From Candidatus Zixiibacteriota bacterium (GTDB taxonomy: Bacteria; Zixibacteria; MSB-5A5; GN15; FEB-12), in assembly GCA_034003725.1 (NCBI GenBank), contig JAVEYB010000002.1, forward strand, positions 62,001-126,000: DNA of 64,000 nt, in the 5' to 3' direction. This document shows positions 2,672 through 46,567 of the stretch, one piece after another. Position 1 is the first letter of the stretch. Each line of letters starts with the position of its first letter. The notes under the pieces are model-generated. The model saw nothing but the letters and a program-made list of their open reading frames with translations, did not search any database and had not been told where the DNA came from. The position numbers were made by a program, and so were the translations under genes.

Positions 2672-4099
2672 ATGGTTGACCAAAAAGATTCGACTCACGT
2701 TGCCGTAATCGGCGGCGGCCCCGGCGGATATGCCGCGGCGTTTATGGCCGCTGACCTCGGCCTCGATGTTACCCTGGTTGACCCCGAAGAGAATCCCGGC
2801 GGCGTGTGTCTTTACCGGGGATGCATCCCCTCGAAAGCGCTGCTCCATGTCGCAAAGCTGATCGCGGAAACCCGCGAGGCGGAATCGTGGGGTTTGAAAT
2901 TCGGCGAGGTCGAGATCGATCTTGACAAGCTGCGATCCTGGAAAGACGGCGTCGTCGGCAAGCTGACCGGCGGTCTTGGGCAGTTGGCGCGGGCCCGCAA
3001 AGTCACCCACATCAGGGGGAAAGCGCGCTTTGTCAGCAGCACAACACTCGAGATAAAAGCCGCCGACGGCGCTCGCAGGCGGCTGACCACCCGGTACTGC
3101 ATTCTTGCTACCGGCTCGCGACCTGCGGTCATTCCGAATCTTGCGCCGGAATCCGATCGTATCCTCGACTCCACTTCCGCGCTGGATATCAAATCCGTTC
3201 CCCGAACGCTGCTGGTGGTCGGGGGAGGGTACATCGGCCTCGAACTCGGCACCGTCTACGCCGCTCTCGGTTCCAAAGTATCTGTCGTAGAGATGACCCC
3301 GTCGCTGCTGCCGGGAGCCGATAAGGACCTGGTAAGCATCCTTTCAAAGCGGTTGAAGTCATCGTTCGAGAGCATCATGCTCAACTCGACCGTTGCGGAG
3401 ATGAAAGAACAGAAAAACGGAATCAGAGCAACCTTCCGTGGTGACAAGCTGGAAAAGGAATCCGCTGTCTACGAGAAGGTCCTGATGTCCGTCGGCCGCA
3501 AACCCAATTCCGGTGACCTCGGTCTCGAAAATACCAAAGTCCGGACCGACCAGCGTGGCTTCGTGATAGTCAATGAGCGGCGGCAGACCGATGATCCCGC
3601 AATCTTCGCGATCGGCGACATCGCCGGCGAGCCGATGCTCGCCCACAAGGCGTCCCATGAGGGAAGGGTTGTTGCCGAAGTGATCGCCGGAAAACACGTG
3701 AACTACGATCCGCGTGCGATTCCCGCGGTCGTGTTCACCGATCCCGAAATCGCCTGGTGCGGGCTCATGGAACACGAAGCGAAACAAAAGGGTATCGACG
3801 TCAAGGTCTCCCGCTTCCCGTGGGCGGCCTCGGGACGGGCTACCACGCTTGGTCGCAACGACGGCGTCACCAAAATCGTTGTTGATGCCAATACCGATCG
3901 CGTGCTCGGAGTCGGCATCGCCGGCGCCGGCGCCGGAGAGCTGATCGCCGAAGCGGTCCTTGCCATCGAGATGGGAGCGCTGGCGTCTGATCTCGGATTG
4001 ACTATCCATCCCCACCCGACCCTTTCTGAGACTATCATGGGTGCCGCCGATTTGATTTACGGCCACGCCACCGACTACTATCGGCCGAAACGTGCGTAG
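2672..4099 (+). CDS. lpdA: Dihydrolipoamide dehydrogenase (E3)
   Basis: 475 residues. It reoxidises the dihydrolipoyl groups of E2 with FAD and NAD+. The N-terminal FAD-binding GGGPGGYAA is followed by the redox-active disulfide motif GGVCLYRGC (Cys46 and Cys51), the second nucleotide-binding VVGGGYIGLELG, the FAD-contacting AIGDIAGEPMLAHKA, and the C-terminal HPHPTLSE holding the catalytic His-Glu pair. All key residues are present. ATG 2672 gives MVDQKDSTHVAVIGGG; a GTG at 2651 would add seven residues. It is the last gene of the pyruvate dehydrogenase operon; the next gene starts 234 bases later with no clear terminator between. Confidence 0.95.
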   Translation: MVDQKDSTHVAVIGGGPGGYAAAFMAADLGLDVTLVDPEENPGGVCLYRGCIPSKALLHVAKLIAETREAESWGLKFGEVEIDLDKLRSWKDGVVGKLTGGLGQLARARKVTHIRGKARFVSSTTLEIKAADGARRRLTTRYCILATGSRPAVIPNLAPESDRILDSTSALDIKSVPRTLLVVGGGYIGLELGTVYAALGSKVSVVEMTPSLLPGADKDLVSILSKRLKSSFESIMLNSTVAEMKEQKNGIRATFRGDKLEKESAVYEKVLMSVGRKPNSGDLGLENTKVRTDQRGFVIVNERRQTDDPAIFAIGDIAGEPMLAHKASHEGRVVAEVIAGKHVNYDPRAIPAVVFTDPEIAWCGLMEHEAKQKGIDVKVSRFPWAASGRATTLGRNDGVTKIVVDANTDRVLGVGIAGAGAGELIAEAVLAIEMGALASDLGLTIHPHPTLSETIMGAADLIYGHATDYYRPKRA

Positions 4100-4333
4100 A
4101 GCGGCCGTGCCGACGTACCCCGCACCGCGACACGAGCGTGCCGGAATCGTCTTCGCCACCCAACCCGATCGGCGATCTCATCTCCGGCTTGGTCGTGACT
4201 GCCTCATTCTCCCGTGAAACTCTGCCCGGGTTCGTTCGTTGATTTAGTATGGGCATGCGCAAACACGTTTGGACAACTTCAGACAGATCGAGTCAATCGA
4301 ACACCGACATCCGGGGCCGTGAGGAGTAATTCT

Positions 4334-4870
4334 ATGGGTGAACCCGTCGATCGTCCCGAAACTAACCGGCCCGCCGGATCGCCGGTGGTGACCTTTCGCG
4401 ACCGGCATCATGAAACGGCACCGGATGACAGTTCGTCTGAACTCGAACTGTTCCAGACTGCCCGGCGGCTGATCCAGGCCCTGGAACGCTGCTCGGCTCG
4501 GATTCGGTCGCACGACGGTCTGACCCTGCCGCAGATGATCTGCCTGCGCGTGGTTGTCGCCGATGGTTCGGTCACCGCCACGGCGCTTGCTCGTCGCGCT
4601 CGCATGAGCGCCAGTACCATTGTCGGCCTGCTCGACGAATTGGAAACGCGCGGGTTTGTCCGACGAGATCGGGACACACGCGACCGGCGTCTGATAAATG
4701 TTACCGCCACCGATAGCGGCAAGGCAGCCGTGAAACAAAACGCTCCCGGCCTCGAACGGGAGATGACGGAACTACTCCGTCGACTCCCCCAGACGGAACG
4801 GGCGGCCATTCGTCAATCGCTGCTGCGCCTCACGGCACACATCGATTCGATCGAATTACAGAGACAGTGA
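4334..4870 (+). CDS. MarR-family transcriptional regulator
   Basis: 178 residues. After a polar N-terminus of about 45 residues there is a winged helix-turn-helix domain: ARRARMSASTIVGLLDELE as the recognition region and RRDRDTRDRRLINVTATDSG as the wing, the latter a very typical MarR signature. GAGGAG lies 8 bases before ATG 4334; the upstream in-frame codons (from 4214) lack a ribosome-binding site. MarR proteins bind palindromic operators as dimers and usually respond to small phenolic or osmotic cues; the ligand here is unknown. Its neighbours are the PDH operon upstream and a YihY gene on the other strand. A second MarR, broken, lies at 6261. Confidence 0.88.
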   Translation: MGEPVDRPETNRPAGSPVVTFRDRHHETAPDDSSSELELFQTARRLIQALERCSARIRSHDGLTLPQMICLRVVVADGSVTATALARRARMSASTIVGLLDELETRGFVRRDRDTRDRRLINVTATDSGKAAVKQNAPGLEREMTELLRRLPQTERAAIRQSLLRLTAHIDSIELQRQ

Positions 4871-4999
4871 ATGGAAGGGACAATCCATGCGTGAAGGACA
4901 GATATACCGCATGTCGCAGCAGACCGAAGCAGAAGACAAGGAACCGCCCAAGAAGCCGCCGCCGAGTCGCGTGCCACCTCGCAGGAAGCGCACGGGAAA

Positions 5000-5917
5000 T
5001 CACGAGGTGGAGCGGGTGTCGCCCGCACGCGCGGCGCGCTCCGCCGCGAGCTGCCCTATCTCGGCTCCGATAATGAACACCATCGACGTGTAATAAATCC
5101 AGAACGCGACCGCCACCAGAAGCGCATAGGTTCCGTACACCTGCTTCAGCGTCGCGCCGTGCTCTATGTAAATTCCGAACAACTGCTTGGCTATTTCCCA
5201 CAGAACCGCGGCCGCAAATGCGCTTACCGCGACCGTTCGTGTGGAGAGACGCTTTTGCGGGACCGCGAAATAGAGCGCTGCATACGCCAGAAATATCGCG
5301 GCGAACGACACCACCCGAATAACGACCCGCTGCACCATCGCGAGGTCCAGCCACTCCGGACCGGTCACCTGTTGCGCGACACGCATCGCGACATCGAGCA
5401 GCGGTAGAAGGGCGATCGATAGCACGAAAAACCCGAGCACGATAAAGACGAGCAACAGATCCTTGGCTTTCCCTCGAAGGATCGTGCCCGTATCGCCTGC
5501 CTGGAATATCTTGTTCAGAACGGTTCGCATGGAGCTGAACAAACCGCTTGCCGCGAAAAGTATCCCGACCAGCCCCAAAAGCCCCGCGATGTTCTTGTAC
5601 AGCGTAAATTCACGGACACGGGCGGCTATCAACCCCTTGATGAAATCAGCGTACTCGGGATACGGAATCACCCTGTCGATATACGAGTTGATCTCCTGGA
5701 CGATAGTCGGCCTCTCCAGCACCATACCCAGCCCGGAGAACAGGATCAACACGAGAGGAAGGATGCAGACAAACAGCGAGAAGGCAAGACCACCGGCATT
5801 CAGGAAGATGTGATGTTCGTACAGCCGGTTATACAGACCGTGCACGTAGTAACGCACCGAGTCTGCGAATTTCTTGAGAAGACCCAACACAACTGTCAGA
5901 ATCGGCAACCGTTTCAT
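5000..5917 (-). CDS. YihY/BrkB-family membrane protein
   Basis: 305 residues with about six hydrophobic helices, beginning at HIFLNAGGLAFSLFVCILPL and ending with ALLVAVAFWIYYTSMVFIIG. The AF.LF...PL pattern of the first helix and the LFGIYIEHGATLKQVYGTY segment before the last are characteristic of the YihY/UPF0761 (formerly BrkB, 'RNase BN') family, inner-membrane proteins of uncertain function. ATG 5917 is preceded by GGAG at good spacing; the open frame extends further upstream to 6004 without a ribosome-binding site. It stands alone on the minus strand. Confidence 0.88.
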   Translation of the reverse strand: MKRLPILTVVLGLLKKFADSVRYYVHGLYNRLYEHHIFLNAGGLAFSLFVCILPLVLILFSGLGMVLERPTIVQEINSYIDRVIPYPEYADFIKGLIAARVREFTLYKNIAGLLGLVGILFAASGLFSSMRTVLNKIFQAGDTGTILRGKAKDLLLVFIVLGFFVLSIALLPLLDVAMRVAQQVTGPEWLDLAMVQRVVIRVVSFAAIFLAYAALYFAVPQKRLSTRTVAVSAFAAAVLWEIAKQLFGIYIEHGATLKQVYGTYALLVAVAFWIYYTSMVFIIGAEIGQLAAERAARAGDTRSTS

Positions 5918-6260
5918 GTGAATCTCCGCATTGGATCGAATATACGCGTGTCGGGTAGTATCGCTACAAAGAAGTTGCCCGCAGAGATGCCGAAAAGCGA
6001 GCACCGGTCGTGTTATCGGCCGAGCGATTTGGCGAGATCGCAGCGGTTGCGGTGTCCCGCCGGAAGGTCCTGCCGGCGTTTCTGTTACACCTTCTGCCTG
6101 ACTTGTTTGCCCGAATAGTCAACTCCACACAAATGATTATAGTACAAATGGTTGTTATGAGAATGATATTTCAGCCGCAGATTCACTGATTATGACGGCA
6201 AAACCGTGATCTCATCGAAAGCCGGGCTGGCCGCGGACTCCCCGAGCGGACACAGCGCCG
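5918..6260. other. Gene-free stretch between yihY and decayed locus
   Basis: No convincing open frame is present. The part at about 6130-6175 is AT-rich (GATTATAGTACAAATGG and following) in an otherwise GC-rich area and may be the orphaned promoter of the broken MarR gene that follows. I see no clear inverted repeat or terminator. Confidence 0.5.
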
Positions 6261-7372: not shown

Positions 7373-8521
7373 ATGAGTTCATCAGCACCTTTTGGTATGC
7401 GAATCGGGGGAATTGCAGCATATGCGCCACGCCACCGGATCTCCAACACGCGAATAGCCGCACGCCTCCGCAAGGAGCGCATGCGCCTCAATGCCGAACA
7501 TCGTCTCAACGGTCATGACCCGCTCGATCGGAAGCAGGAAAAGCTCTTCAAAACCAGCGATCGGTGGATCCAGCGGTTTATCGGTTTCAAGGAGCGCCGT
7601 TTTGCTGCCGACGGCGAGGGCACGATCGATCTGGCCGCTCGCGCCGCGCTGCTGTTGCTGGACAAGACGGGCCTGAAGCCGTCAGAGGTTGATGGCATTG
7701 TCTTCGGCACCGTGACGCCGTCATATCTGAACTCGCCGCCCGATGCCGCGCTGCTGCAGGACCGCCTCGGAATCCCCTCCGTGATCGGCGACAAACCGCG
7801 TGAATTCTTTGCGGTCGACTGCTCGCTCGCCTGCAGTACCTGGGTGACTGCGCTCCGCAGCGCCTATATGCTGATCTCCACCGGCGCCGCCAAAAACGTA
7901 CTCGTTATCGGCGCCGACAAAATGAGCGGGACTATCAACTGGCGGGATCGAGCGTTTGCCACCGTACTCGGCGATGCCGGAACGGCCACCTGGTGTACTG
8001 CGGTACCGAAGGATCAGGACTGGTTCGGCGGAGAACGCTTCTGGAGTTGGGCCAGTGGGCGCGACGGCGACGTCATTATCACGCCGGCGGGCGGATCGGT
8101 GCGGCCCATCACGTCGATGAAGGATCTCGATGATTATCAGGATCGGCTCACCATGGATGGCGCCATGGTCAAAGAACTGATGGTGCCGCTGGTGGGTGGG
8201 CCCGGCATCGACGCCGCCCTCGAAAAATGCGGCTGGAGCATCGACATGCTCGATACCGCCACCTTCCATGAAGCCAACCTGATGATGAATCAGGATATTG
8301 CGAACCAGTGGAAAACCAAAGGCTTCCGTGGAGCGGTTGTCGATGCGGGGGGGATGTTCGGCAATACGACTTCGGCTTCCATTCCGCTGGCTGTCACACT
8401 GCACCCGGAGTATCTGAAGGTCGGTGTGCGGTTTATCTGGTTCGCGTTTGGCGGCGGTCTGTCGGCGGCCAGCGCGATGGGCGAGATTAAGCACCCGATT
8501 GTAGTCAGCGCGTCCATATAA
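7373..8521 (+). CDS. 3-oxoacyl-ACP synthase III (FabH)-like thiolase-fold enzyme
   Basis: 382 residues, longer than the roughly 320 of housekeeping FabH. The Cys-His-Asn triad is visible: Cys154 in DCSLACSTW, His299 in TFHEANL and Asn331 in GNTTSAS, with GFGGG-like FAFGGGLSAAS near the end. The extra length is mainly an insert of basic, helical sequence at about 30-60, ahead of RWIQRFIGFKERR. Such enzymes condense an acyl-CoA with malonyl-ACP or a second acyl chain, or transfer acyl groups. No other fatty-acid gene is adjacent, so substrate and pathway are open. The ATG at 7373 has only a weak upstream GGGAAACC; MRIGGIAAYAP at 7397 is an alternative start. Confidence 0.85.
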   Translation: MSSSAPFGMRIGGIAAYAPRHRISNTRIAARLRKERMRLNAEHRLNGHDPLDRKQEKLFKTSDRWIQRFIGFKERRFAADGEGTIDLAARAALLLLDKTGLKPSEVDGIVFGTVTPSYLNSPPDAALLQDRLGIPSVIGDKPREFFAVDCSLACSTWVTALRSAYMLISTGAAKNVLVIGADKMSGTINWRDRAFATVLGDAGTATWCTAVPKDQDWFGGERFWSWASGRDGDVIITPAGGSVRPITSMKDLDDYQDRLTMDGAMVKELMVPLVGGPGIDAALEKCGWSIDMLDTATFHEANLMMNQDIANQWKTKGFRGAVVDAGGMFGNTTSASIPLAVTLHPEYLKVGVRFIWFAFGGGLSAASAMGEIKHPIVVSASI

Positions 8522-8722
8522 TGACAGAGTCAGGGGTCCCGGAACTCCGGTGGCCGGACTCGCGTTCTTGAATTCGACGTTTATGACCGTCCCTGCGGGA
8601 ACCGTGGGGGCAATCCGGGCACGTACTTTTTCATCTGCCGCCGGCAGCATGAGTGCTCCGGAGCATCACTGAAAGATGTCAACCCGAAGAAGTGACGCCC
8701 ACGTCACTGGTCAGGCAGATCG

Positions 8723-41998: not shown

Positions 41999-42505
41999 GC
42001 GAGTTTGCATCCGATTCAACCGTGCTCTCGGACGGGTCGTCTGACCGCACAGTTTCTTTATGTCTTCGGCTCCCAGGATGAAGGTGACGGCAGGTCTGAA
42101 GACAGACCGTCGTCACACAAACGGTGCAAGCAACTTTTTCGTTGTACAAGTGTGGCGCTCTGCGCGTTATGCGGAAATGGGTTTGTTTTGCTATTTTTAT
42201 GGGGACCCCATTCTTTTCCTTTCCCCGATCATGATTTCGGGCAGGGGAATAACCGCTTTTTGAGCGGACTTTTGGCAACCGGTCGCGATACTGAAGTGCC
42301 ATCATTTTTGCGCTCCGTGTGAGTGGAGTGTTTACTAAGGGGGGCCGGGCATTTTTTCCATCGAGGTGGTAGGGAAAGTGTGGGTCGCGTGGTGCACGAG
42401 GACGGGAGCCACGCACGGACTAACGATGGAGAGACGATGTGCGAGTCATTCCGAGTGTACCGTTTCAGCAGAAAGTGGACACGGCTGGGTATTTGTTAAG
42501 ACTCT
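41999..42505. other. Gene-free stretch with dispersed repeats
   Basis: No gene is seen. It holds copy B of the 40-base dispersed repeat (42173-42217), a short hairpin CCGCTTTTTGAGCGG at 42251-42265, and at 42404-42418 the sequence GGGAGCCACGCACGG that recurs at 45973. Sequence composition is lower in GC than the housekeeping genes. Confidence 0.55.
42173..42217 (+). repeat. Dispersed 40-base repeat, copy B
   Basis: GGAAATGGGTTTGTTTTG, then CTATTTTTAT and GGGGACCCCATT. It is the counterpart of the copy at 17712-17755 on the other strand, differing at only a handful of positions over about 40 bases. Confidence 0.7.
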
Positions 42506-45373
42506 CTACTGTCGCAATTCCAGTTTGATACTCCCGCTGAAGGTCGCCGACTGTCTGTGCGGAGGGTCATTGGGATTTGGCTCCGAAGCCTTTGAAGTGC
42601 TTGCACAATATATTCCGGTAAACAACTGCACGAAAGTCTTGCCCGGAGGGATTGACCTGAATTGATTTTCATCGTTCAGATTCGTCGTCGCATTATATTC
42701 TCCGTCCAGTCGAAACAGGCGGGAGTAGTCTATTGTCGGATGTTCCAGGATTCCAAGCACATCGCAACTGCTCACAACCTTACTGCCCAGATCAAAACGT
42801 GCGGAGTAGCCGGTAATTTGACCCTGGTAAGTATATTCTGATGTCGCAGTGAAATCGTACGCATACCATAGGCCATAGCTTTGACTAGTCTTGTTGTCTA
42901 TCTCAAGGACAACCCAGGCCCAAGTTTCAAATCGCAGGGCAGCGGTGCCTGAAGCGTAGCCATGTCCAGTTACATCTGCCCGGGTGTATCCGGAGAAGTC
43001 TATCGTCATGGACTTATCATCAAGAGGATTAAATGATAACTCGCACTCAGCCGCAGCCTCAGTGGTTACAGCAGACGCCGTGATTGTTCCCAAGTGGTTG
43101 CCCCCGCCGAGCGAATCACCGCCGGTGCACGTATAGGCTGGTTCGCCACTTGGACCATGCAAGACGTAGGTATAGTAATCTTGTTTAGATTCTACCTGAA
43201 TACCATCTACAGAATAGCGAGCCTCGGCCAACTTGGTGTACGGTCCCTGGCCCCGTGGTGTAATTAACTCATATGGGTTGCCGACGTGAACGGTCATTGT
43301 AATAGATCCACCGTAGTTCACCGCGGCCGTCGATGTTTGTCTGCCGATCACTTCCACGGTCTGTGAGGCGGGATCAGCGCTCAACAAGTTGCCGGTACCG
43401 TCGTCGACATCTCGGGCAACGACAGTATAGGTTCCGGCCAATAAGGAGTCGATCAGGGTATCCGTGACAATGTGCGTGAATACTCCATCCCCGGTCAAAT
43501 CGATATCAGCTTCAATGCCTTCGGGGAGGCCCGACACTGTTACCAAAATACTTCCGTACTTCGCCGTGTATTCGATATCAATCGTCACATCGTCTTCATC
43601 ATCAAGTGTGATGGTGGTATCAACCGGTTTCGGGACATACTCATAATTGTCAGCATCCAATACAGCAAAGGAGTAGATATGGTAGCTCCCCGATTCAAGC
43701 GGCGATAACACGGTGCTTTGAGTGATTTTTCCAGAGGAATAGCCGCTCGGCCCATCCACAAAAACACTGCCGTCAGTTCCACCGGGGAGTCCTGTGATCT
43801 GTACATGAAGTGTGGCCGGATTCCCCACAACGACGGTCTTAGTCTCGGTCCCAGGTGAAGCATTGCCGAACGCTCCTCCGGAATAGACGCAAATAGCGCA
43901 AAGAGCGTGGTCAATCAGAACTTTCGCCTGCTCGCCGGCTGTACGCCCTCGAGCCTGAATTGCCCCTTCACCTTTTTCCATACCTATCCATTCAAGTATT
44001 GACGTATCCGGTTTGAGAATGGTGGGCTCGATACTGAACAGCTCGACCAGATCAGAATGGTTAATGGTGACGGGGCCCCAAGTCATCTCCGGCAGATCGG
44101 CTTCCGGGTCAATGAAGATCGCCCCACCCTGCGAATCATTATACGCCACAAGACACTTGCGATACAGGTCGAGTGCAAATTTGATGGTTTCTTTGAGGAT
44201 TTCACGAAACTCGGTAACAAGACCCTGAGGAACTCCCTTCGCAGCAAGGGCGTCAATCAGCACATCCAGGATCTGGGTCGCCTTAATGGTGGACGGTATG
44301 TTTCTGGCCGAGATCGCTATCGTACTGTAGGTCGGTTCCCCTACGCCGATCGTGTCAGATTCAAGGGTGAGGGTGAAAGCCGTAATCTCCGCCGGAAACA
44401 GACTTGGCGCCAAAGTTCCGTAAACGAATTCCCAGACAGACATGATCGAATTGATGACTAGAATCGGAAGCGCGGCGATTCCGCTGATCGCGATCAGGTC
44501 AGCTCCAATCTTCACTGACTCGGCATAAGTTTGTGCTGTCGGCTTCACGACTAAGTTTTTATAGTCTTCCAGGATCGTGTATATCTGCATTTGGCAGGCC
44601 AGATCCATATCCGGACCGCCATCCCGGCAAAAAATGCTGCTCTTAGTACTAGATATCTTCTGGGAAAACTTGCCTACGGAATTGGCAAACTCATTGTAGT
44701 AGTCCAAAGCGCCACATGATGCCATGACTGCATCTTGAAGAGCCAAGGCTGAATCCTCTTGAGCTGTCCACGATGACGAACCGGACAGGATCGACTGGAT
44801 CGAACTATCCACCCCTGATATCAGGGAGTCCAGCATAAACGATATCGCCAGCCGATACCCCTCAAGCCGTTCATCCTGACCCGGAAGTTGTGCGAGAGAA
44901 TTGAGGACCTCCCCGAGTGAACTGCTGATAATCTGCAGGTCCTGCGCGATCGAATCCATAGTGCCGTCGGCATGAGGCAATGTATCGATAGTCAGTGCCC
45001 CCAGTGCCTGGGCTACGGTGTCGGCACCCTTGATGATGAAAACGTCCTGAGCACCGGAAGGTATCTTCGGCCACAACCCCCCTTCCTCAAGGAAAAGTGG
45101 CACCAGGGCGACGATCGAATCGCCATTTACTACAAATGGAGTAAGATAACCGCCAACGTGCATAGTCACTGTCGTATCGCCGGGGGTAATCTTGTAACCC
45201 GTAATCTCCAAGGGAGAACCCGGAACGCCGTGAGTGGGACTGACTTGAATTGTTGCAGGTTCGGATCCCGGCCCAGTTGGCCCAGATTGCTTTTTGGAAC
45301 AAGACGGCAAGAGCAACCAAACGGCCGCTGCCGAGATTATTATAACGGCAATGATCCACTTATTGTACATCAT
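42506..45373 (-). CDS. Large lipoprotein with IPT/TIG-like and Ig-like regions
   Basis: 955 residues. The signal peptide (about 1-25, IIAVIIISAAAVWLLLPSC) ends in the lipobox LLPSC. An IPT/TIG-like domain follows (about 38-125, IQVSPTHGVPGSPLEITGYK). The central region (about 125-530) is mainly helical with two cysteine-containing stretches (CGALDYYNEFAN, CRDGGPDMDLACQMQ) and no family I recognise. The C-terminal half is beta-rich and holds two similar repeats (about 545-620 and 625-700, each with ITGLPGGTDGSVFVD- or VSGLPEGIEADIDLT-type strands). It looks like a surface lipoprotein. Base composition is poorer in GC than the neighbours, consistent with an acquired gene. The only ribosome-binding site, AAGGTGG, is tight against the start ATG at 45373. 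Confidence 0.75.
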   Translation of the reverse strand: MMYNKWIIAVIIISAAAVWLLLPSCSKKQSGPTGPGSEPATIQVSPTHGVPGSPLEITGYKITPGDTTVTMHVGGYLTPFVVNGDSIVALVPLFLEEGGLWPKIPSGAQDVFIIKGADTVAQALGALTIDTLPHADGTMDSIAQDLQIISSSLGEVLNSLAQLPGQDERLEGYRLAISFMLDSLISGVDSSIQSILSGSSSWTAQEDSALALQDAVMASCGALDYYNEFANSVGKFSQKISSTKSSIFCRDGGPDMDLACQMQIYTILEDYKNLVVKPTAQTYAESVKIGADLIAISGIAALPILVINSIMSVWEFVYGTLAPSLFPAEITAFTLTLESDTIGVGEPTYSTIAISARNIPSTIKATQILDVLIDALAAKGVPQGLVTEFREILKETIKFALDLYRKCLVAYNDSQGGAIFIDPEADLPEMTWGPVTINHSDLVELFSIEPTILKPDTSILEWIGMEKGEGAIQARGRTAGEQAKVLIDHALCAICVYSGGAFGNASPGTETKTVVVGNPATLHVQITGLPGGTDGSVFVDGPSGYSSGKITQSTVLSPLESGSYHIYSFAVLDADNYEYVPKPVDTTITLDDEDDVTIDIEYTAKYGSILVTVSGLPEGIEADIDLTGDGVFTHIVTDTLIDSLLAGTYTVVARDVDDGTGNLLSADPASQTVEVIGRQTSTAAVNYGGSITMTVHVGNPYELITPRGQGPYTKLAEARYSVDGIQVESKQDYYTYVLHGPSGEPAYTCTGGDSLGGGNHLGTITASAVTTEAAAECELSFNPLDDKSMTIDFSGYTRADVTGHGYASGTAALRFETWAWVVLEIDNKTSQSYGLWYAYDFTATSEYTYQGQITGYSARFDLGSKVVSSCDVLGILEHPTIDYSRLFRLDGEYNATTNLNDENQFRSIPPGKTFVQLFTGIYCASTSKASEPNPNDPPHRQSATFSGSIKLELRQ

Positions 45374-45714
45374 CCACCTTCTGATATAGATGTCGATGGC
45401 TCAAAAGCCAGCCATCAAGGCCGCGCAAATCAGGCCCACTGCGTGGGGCATCAACACGGATAAGTAGGAATTAGGACTCCATTAACCGAATTATGCATAT
45501 TCCGAAAACGGAGTTTAACACTCTAGGTGTATTAATCTTGTTTGTAAGATACTGAAATCTTCAATAAATTCAAGAGGGAATATGGGCCGCATTAGTCAAC
45601 GGGGGCCCTACACAATGAGTTTTACAAATGGGATTCGGAATCGCGGGCATAAAAAAGCGGCCCCGACAAAACTTTCCCCAAACGTTTGTGAAGTACGAGT
45701 ATCCGGGGATGGAC

Positions 45715-45847
45715 GGCACGCACGCGTGGGAGGTTGGGGGGAAGAAGGCGGACGAGCCGTACGCGGGCCGCTCCGTTGACATCCCACCCGGGACGGGTGG
45801 GCTACTCGGTTGACATCCCACTGGGGACGGGTGGGCTACTCGGTATG
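45715..45847 (+). repeat. Palindromic repeat block, copy 1
   Basis: The block reads GGCACGCACGCGTGGGAGG, then AAGGCGGACGAGCC, ACGCGGGCCGCTCC and two tandem 34-base units beginning GTTGACATCCCACCCGGGAC. The first unit contains the hairpin CCCACCCG-GGA-CGGGTGGG at 45783-45801. The second unit is slightly degraded (CCCACTGGGGACGGGTGGG). Confidence 0.8.
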
Positions 45848-45975
45848 GAGAGAAAGGCAACGTCAGCACCGGTCGCTCGCGATGCACCGATTGACGTGAC
45901 GGGAAGGGCGATCACGACCGGAGCTGACCTACACGGCGCAACAGTCGTGAGGGTTCGTGGTGCAGGGGGACGGGA

Positions 45976-46108
45976 GCCACGCACGGTGGGAAGTCGGCGG
46001 GTTCGAAGGCGGACGAGCCATACGCGGGCCGCTCCGTTGACATCCCACCCGGGACGGGTGGGCTACTCGGATGACATCCCACCCGGGACGGGTGGGCTAC
46101 TCGGTATG
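45976..46108 (+). repeat. Palindromic repeat block, copy 2
   Basis: A direct copy of the block at 45715, 261 bases downstream, again with two tandem 34-base units; here both hairpins are perfect CCCACCCGGGACGGGTGGG. About 90% of positions agree with copy 1 by eye. It ends 19 bases from the convergent NifU-like gene stop. Confidence 0.8.
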
Positions 46109-46126
46109 ATGACCAGTCGGGGGGCC

Positions 46127-46567
46127 TCACCCGCAGCCGCAGTTGCCGCAGGCTTTGATTTCCTCGGTCATGAGGTCGATGTTAAGCCGTGCGATGATTT
46201 CGATGCCATCGGGTGATGACGTGACCGAATGGACGGCGCAGTAGTCGGTCGGGCGGCCGGTCGTATGTCCCAGAGCCGCCTGTAATGTCTTCTGGACGGC
46301 AAACAGGTGTTTTGCATACAGAAACTGCCAGGTCTGTGAGCGCGTGGGGAAATGCGGCAGGAGATCGTCCGGTGTGGCGGAGAGGATGTCATCGGCCCGC
46401 CGGTTTTTAATCCACTTTTTGAGAAGGGACGGCTTTCCGACGGCGCCGCTGCAGGAATCCTTGGCGATCGCATAGTAGGTGACGCGATCGTTCTGGTCGA
46501 GCACCAAGCGGATATTTTCGGACACATCGTGGCACGGCATACAATCAGGATAATATGCACCGGCCAT
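46127..46567 (-). CDS. NifU/IscU-like cysteine-rich protein
   Basis: 146 residues. YAIAKDSCSGAVGKPSLLKK, ILSATPDDLLPHFP and FLYAKHLFAVQKTLQAALG resemble the NifU N-terminal scaffold fold, and the protein ends KACGNCGCG, a cysteine cluster that could bind iron-sulfur. Further cysteines lie in PDCMPCHDV and DYCAVHS. This may be an Fe-S cluster scaffold or carrier. The start is uncertain: ATG 46567 lacks a ribosome-binding site, and a TTGACA (46571-46576) with TATTAT (46550-46555) on the minus strand suggests transcription could begin almost at ATG 46540, giving a leaderless message. Confidence 0.5.
   Translation of the reverse strand: MAGAYYPDCMPCHDVSENIRLVLDQNDRVTYYAIAKDSCSGAVGKPSLLKKWIKNRRADDILSATPDDLLPHFPTRSQTWQFLYAKHLFAVQKTLQAALGHTTGRPTDYCAVHSVTSSPDGIEIIARLNIDLMTEEIKACGNCGCG

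Follow-up and report, generated by a model that had tools for sequence, protein, structure and literature searches.

Introduction

REP sequences with a GTAG tag form a superfamily of 24 families in the descriptive sections of Di Nocera et al. (2013, PMC3733652), named there from Proteobacteria, Cyanobacteria, Chloroflexi, and the PVC group, whereas the genome described here is GN15-related. The RAYT gene tnpAREP occurs in approximately 25% of bacterial species, distant genera among them, according to the sections of Corneloup et al. (2021, PMC8266576) on its distribution; hence, a RAYT in the present genome is unsurprising in itself. REPINs are inverted pairs of REPs and are thought to be the mobile unit (PMC3116915 and PMC8049555, in the passages that define them), and in Pseudomonas fluorescens SBW25, the corresponding sections of Bertels and Rainey (2011, PMC3116915) describe two REP groups that form tandem arrays, with all units of an array pointing the same way.

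We analyzed a 64,000-nucleotide stretch of DNA (the window) from a genome of 3.73 Mb in 35 contigs that is 99.5% complete. One intergenic region of the window contains four F1 units, one F3 unit, and F2- and F4-type units; F1 is dispersed throughout the genome, and a RAYT gene bracketed by F1 lies on another contig. We assign a probability of roughly 85% to the reading that this is a compound GTAG-tagged REP cluster, seeded in trans by RAYTs and then locally duplicated.

Structure of the duplicated block

The direct duplication reported in the initial annotation, with two hairpins in each copy, is confirmed and spans 143 nt (45705-45847 and 45966-46108), with an identity of 87% and a start-to-start distance of 261 nt. 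The copies differ at 19 positions and share a longest exact run of 50 nt. Of these differences, the two-hairpin part (69 positions) holds 3 and the other 74 positions hold 16. The two hairpins of each copy belong to F1 and lie on the minus strand, where the unit reads CCGAGTAG-CCCACCCG-TCC-CGGGTGGG-AT with the GTAG tag preceding CCCACCCG-TCC-CGGGTGGG. Three of the four stems are perfect over 8 bp, and the fourth is degenerate (CCCACCCG/CCAGTGGG).

Three further REP-like families in the region had been overlooked. Downstream of the 146-aa gene, the order on the minus strand is F1, F1, F2-type, F4-type, F3, F1, F1, decayed F2-type, and decayed F4-type (Table 1), all in one orientation, which is also that of the genes on both sides. 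The decayed F2-type unit is assigned mainly by its position, since a match with nine mismatches also arises by chance elsewhere in the window. A profile of the F3 unit beside the C12 RAYT failed to reach the window F3 copy at E 0.001, and a structural pattern reached it. The 15-base match at 42404, which had been taken for a relative of the CCCACCC hairpin of the block, is real, lies inside a 31-nt match (94%), and is found twice in the genome, but it belongs to F4 and the proposed kinship does not hold.

At E 0.01, the 146-aa protein matched no Pfam or NCBIfam family and the 955-aa protein no Pfam family. Inspection by eye also showed a longer dispersed repeat (CACACTTTCCCTACCACCTCGATGGAAAAAATGCCCGGCCCCCC onward) at 42260-42388 of the window (minus strand), at L039 4800-4920, and at L037 1200-1400, which adjoins F4 units or RAYT arrays.

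Table 1. Coordinates of the REP units, the neighboring genes, and the F1-flanked RAYT gene (window positions unless a locus is named)
Feature	Position	Strand	Basis
F1 REP hairpin 1 (GTAG + CCCACCCG-TCC-CGGGTGGG)	46076..46105	-	nhmmer and CM match; perfect 8-bp stem
F1 REP hairpin 2	46042..46070	-	nhmmer match; perfect stem; absent as a separate entry from CM matches
F2-type REP	45996..46023	-	4/28 positions differ from GTAGGGCGGGTCCGTCTTCGAACCCGCC
F4-type hairpin	45956..45984	-	6/29 positions differ from GTGCGTGGTGTACGTCCTCGTGCACCACG
F3 REP (GTAGGTCAGCTCCGGTCG...CGACCGGTGCTGAC), in the spacer between copies	45862..45932 (C2:107862-107932)	-	pattern match; fold z -4.29
F1 REP hairpin 3, partly degenerate stem	45815..45844	-	nhmmer match; absent from CM matches
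F1 REP hairpin 4	45781..45810	-	nhmmer and CM match
Decayed F2-type unit	45735..45762	-	9/28 mismatches; mainly position in the duplicated block
Decayed, truncated F4-type unit	45704..45723	-	12/29 mismatches across the whole unit; assigned by its place in the duplicated block
Isolated F4 hairpin (contains the 15-base match)	42388..42416	-	4/29 mismatches
146-aa gene, function unknown	46127..46567	-	ORF list; matches in 27/61 genomes, own included
955-aa protein, unknown family, next gene downstream	42506..45373	-	ORF list; lipoprotein-like N-terminus by eye
C4 RAYT gene	L036:9462-9968	-	PF01797, NF047646

Copy number and conservation of F1

A blastn search of the genome with a 166-base query (the second block and its flank) gave 54 matches at E<=0.01. 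A covariance model (CM) built from 37 hairpins gave at least 71 F1 matches at E<=0.01 and at least 55 below 1e-5, with 150 of 1563 candidates scored. The CM matches do not include the second F1 of either window pair, so true copies are missed, and some of the 16 CM matches above 1e-5 may be due to chance. These counts bear out the REP-like family suggested in the initial annotation, for which a total of only two genomic copies would have meant a local tandem duplication. Matches to F1-F4 lie within about 1 kb of an end in contigs C2, C9, C11, C12, C13, C14, C17, C18, and C22; the assembly may therefore break at long REP arrays and the copy numbers may be underestimates.

In the 37 sequences, 97% of the cells of the F1 stem are paired, and the covariation score was reached by none of 500 shuffles. 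This score is driven by the innermost pair, in which C-G and G-C are swapped in 17 of the 37 sequences. The number of pairs changed on both sides (1) and that of further pair types (2) were not above the shuffles (500/500), and three of the eight stem pairs never vary and hence carry no covariation information. In the tag preceding the 8-bp stem, GT is invariant and the last G nearly so in the 37 aligned matches, while the third position is mostly A, with some C or G.

Across 61 genomes, the CM (E<=1e-4, with stricter filters and 110 candidates scored per genome) found 56 F1 matches in the own genome, 39 and 17 in two genomes of the same genus, and 1-10 in nine others. A scan of GTDB 220 (one genome per species, from which own-genome records may have been left out) with the exact F1 pattern returned 11 stretches in three MAGs, namely MAG50 ("bacterium") and two labelled candidate division GN15. 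GN15 is placed near Zixibacteria in GTDB.

Genomic context and orientation of F1

Only 5 of 58 F1 units lie inside called genes, compared with 42.9 expected, in 279 kb of match-bearing stretches where genes were called with a crude home-made codon model; the stretches were chosen for carrying matches, and their coding share (74%) is thus probably low for the genome. The other units are located between tandem genes (28), convergent genes (14), or divergent genes (6), or at stretch ends (5). F1 shows the features by which GTAG-tagged REPs are recognized: a tag at one end, many dispersed copies, an extragenic location, and the association with a cognate RAYT described below.

Among the 55 matches below 1e-5, all 25 pairs of F1 neighbors within 500 bp are head-to-tail. 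Same-strand pairs within this distance account for 5 of 5 in G001, a genome of the same genus, and for 3 of 7 in G002, also of this genus, the other four being inverted. The inverted F1 flanks of the C4 RAYT just exceed the 500-bp limit. The inverted doublet that characterizes REPINs is absent from the window cluster, where all four F1 units are on one strand; as for BIMEs, the mosaic of REPs and linkers is present and the alternating orientation is absent. The head-to-tail F1 pairs, and the persistence of F2 without a detected cognate RAYT, are the less usual features of this system.

RAYT genes

The initial annotation had placed any mobility of the block in trans, through a RAYT-type transposase, and candidates for this role exist in the genome. 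A search with PF01797 (Y1_Tnp) found three genes, all of which also score above the cut-off of NCBIfam NF047646 (REP_Tyr_transpos). The C4 RAYT scores 30.5 bits for PF01797 (cut-off 23) and 111.8 bits for NF047646 (cut-off 80), and its protein matches TnpAREP (PDB 4er8) with E 3e-9. A DHVH-type motif could be aligned, and H60, H62, and Y130 are invariant in four RAYTs; from its position, Y130 would be the catalytic Tyr. The gene is flanked by F1 in both orientations: an F1 in the sense orientation with a GTAG tag is situated 47 nt upstream, and F1-type hairpins in the inverted orientation with a GTCG tag are situated 10 and 91 nt downstream. This arrangement points to F1 as the probable substrate of the enzyme, which may also have acted on the window copies.

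The C12 RAYT has three tandem F3 units upstream, and the unit search found no F3 downstream of it. The C11 RAYT is embedded in ~51-nt CCGTGACCAAGGTCACGG repeats, which are arrayed on both sides of it (L037 1-1230, at the start of contig C11); the first bases of this contig resemble an untrimmed Illumina adapter. Separately, dispersed direct repeats of the form GTTACCCATGT..GTGAGTC at L039 ~6060-6115 and 8478-8570 look by eye like the ends of an insertion sequence.

Families F2, F3, and F4

Pattern counts in the own genome gave 42 F2, 52 F4, and 37 F3 units, each with none in the reversed-pattern control; the F3 pattern fixes the outer stem, so that divergent F3 copies are missed, and three of the 37 are those upstream of the C12 RAYT. 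None of the three RAYTs of the own genome is flanked by F2. In G001, a RAYT above the NCBIfam cut-off is preceded by four F2 units and followed by one inverted F2, and the gene upstream of it is presumably groEL-like, judging from its C-terminal sequence. A search of the own genome found no close orthologue of this RAYT; the C12 RAYT matched it at 44% and the C4 RAYT, weakly, at 34%. At the 3' end of groEL, G001 carries the F2 array, the RAYT, and the inverted F2, and the own genome carries one lone F2 and no RAYT in the stretch read; the sequence downstream of groEL differs between the two genomes, which makes this comparison suggestive only.

Two other loci were noted in passing. A 485-nt unit (F2, F3, F1, F4, F1) is repeated about 2.5 times at L041 ~3990-5200 (C1:226990-228200) and represents another compound head-to-tail array. 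At L160 (G001:C6:196200-198500), a RAYT relative matched in two separate pieces and is apparently broken, with F4-type and CCCACCA-type hairpins nearby.

Comparison of the site with relatives

We sought an occupied and empty site pair for the window cluster in the relatives by means of the 146-aa gene, and no clean pair was found. The nearest relative, G002, has an orthologue of this gene (74% identical) beside the same aminotransferase neighbor (81% identical). After the 146-aa gene, G002 lacks the F1 block and shows other GTAG-tagged hairpins (by eye) and a different downstream sequence, and a search of two stretches of the G002 contig (L117 and the 4-kb L162) did not find the 955-aa protein. 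For these reasons, the site is not a clean empty one.

Proposed origin of the cluster

In the model that we favor, the HUH/tyrosine enzyme encoded by the C4 gene would recognize F1 as a single-stranded hairpin with its GTAG tag, and would have seeded the window F1 units in trans. The C12 RAYT would be responsible for the F3 unit, and a RAYT like the one that the same-genus genome retains would be responsible for the F2 units. A later local event, either recombination or slippage between direct repeats, would then have doubled the F1-F1-F2-F4 stretch as a unit, and this would explain why the modules of both copies share their order and orientation. The hairpins would lie in the 3' untranslated region of the transcript of the 146-aa gene, and any effect there would be secondary. 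Weak points of this model are that the relatives offered no clean empty site and that F1 lacks the inverted doublets predicted for REPINs, although arrays with a single orientation are known from P. fluorescens SBW25.

A variant that addresses the units themselves is that a head-to-tail cassette of several REP families, not an inverted REPIN, multiplies here, with RAYTs acting across families and thereby keeping a family such as F2 alive after the loss of its cognate RAYT. We consider this variant unlikely.

A second alternative holds that the hairpins are RNA-level elements (a 3'-UTR stabilizer, attenuator, or terminator) kept for a function in the transcript and spread by recombination, the link with RAYTs being incidental. 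Indeed, the cluster begins 21 nt past the end of the 146-aa gene, on the strand that encodes both neighbors, and the F1 pairs fold stably: folded as ssDNA, the minus strand of 46038-46109 has a z of -4.29 (0 of 200 shuffles equally stable), and 45777-45848 has a z of -2.63 on the minus strand (4/200 shuffles) and -1.80 on the plus strand (9/200). However, F1 units between tandem genes lack a bias toward the gene strand (11 on the same strand, 17 on the opposite), and Rfam at the gathering threshold yielded two tRNAs in the window and no match at the block. The association with RAYTs in relatives also argues against an incidental link. Of the 61 genomes searched, own included, 49 gave matches to the C4 protein; the best 29 relative loci were fetched, and 25 of them had enough flank for a test. 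A correctly oriented tagged hairpin was found within 150 nt of the C4-type RAYT on at least one side in 20 of the 25 loci and on both sides in 12, compared with 1-2 of 20-23 at control offsets of 300-1100 nt and 4 of 25 for the opposite orientation beside the gene. Under the strict rule, the remaining 5 of 25 have no tagged hairpin; this rule drops imperfect stems (e.g., L060, L070), and a looser hairpin finder missed the flanks of some relatives (e.g., L077). Retention for a role in the transcript thus appears decidedly improbable as the main explanation.

A MITE-like family had been raised in the initial annotation beside a REP-like one. A MITE family would have terminal inverted repeats and target-site duplications and would be moved by a DDE transposase, and the units are short, dispersed, and hairpin-forming, as such elements are. 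Each unit is, however, a single hairpin whose tag is confined to one side, paired with a Y1/HUH-type gene, which leaves a MITE origin very little credence. A tandem duplication that is purely local and involves no element family would fit the adjacency of the blocks, their like order and orientation, and the fact that only these two blocks, of the 54 blastn matches, span most of the query above 80% identity. As the sole explanation it is refuted by the spread of the F1 hairpin over many contigs and by the dozens of pattern matches to each of the other modules, and its probability is slight in the extreme; local duplication stays as one step of the REP cluster model. A coding repeat, suggested by an open 160-aa ORF at 45734-46216 (plus strand) that spans both copies at a spacing that is a multiple of three, was rejected as next to impossible, since the differences between the copies are nearly even over the codon positions (7, 7, 5) and the region is free of gene calls by the crude codon model.

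Comparison with known systems

The block belongs to a real dispersed REP system, and its interpretation through REPs and RAYTs is supported. Both GTAG-tagged REPs and RAYTs are already known; what is new here is a REP/RAYT system in a GN15-related lineage. It comprises three RAYT genes in the genome itself, four or more hairpin families, and one more RAYT in a same-genus genome. Searches of one collection of open-licence papers found none joining Zixibacteria with "repetitive extragenic palindrom", GN15 with RAYT, or Zixibacteria with RAYT. The RAYT flanks in the relatives (25 loci) provide natural enzyme-substrate pairs in which the joint change of RAYT and hairpin can be followed.

As in the GTAG-tagged REPs, in the descriptive sections of PMC3733652, F1 has an unpaired GTAG at one end, an 8-bp GC-rich stem, and a short loop. 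Complementary stem variants, several families per genome, an extragenic location, and repeat-flanked RAYT genes are likewise shared with that account. The likeness is drawn from the written descriptions in that paper, and the F1 pairs differ in being head-to-tail in 25 of 25 cases. With the REPtron, as outlined in the relevant sections of Nunvar et al. (2010, PMC2817692) and Corneloup et al. (2021, PMC8266576), the present system shares a Y1/HUH gene (RAYT, TnpAREP) flanked by a sense and an inverted REP, together with dispersed cognate REPs. It differs in its lineage and in that F2 occurs here without a detected F2-flanked RAYT, although a same-genus genome has one. The mosaic of several REP classes with linkers resembles the BIMEs in the sections of Bertels and Rainey (2011, PMC3116915) that treat them, whereas, unlike the REPINs of the same sections, which are inverted pairs, the F1 units of the window cluster form none. 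The head-to-tail arrays offer a useful contrast to the inverted-doublet rule.
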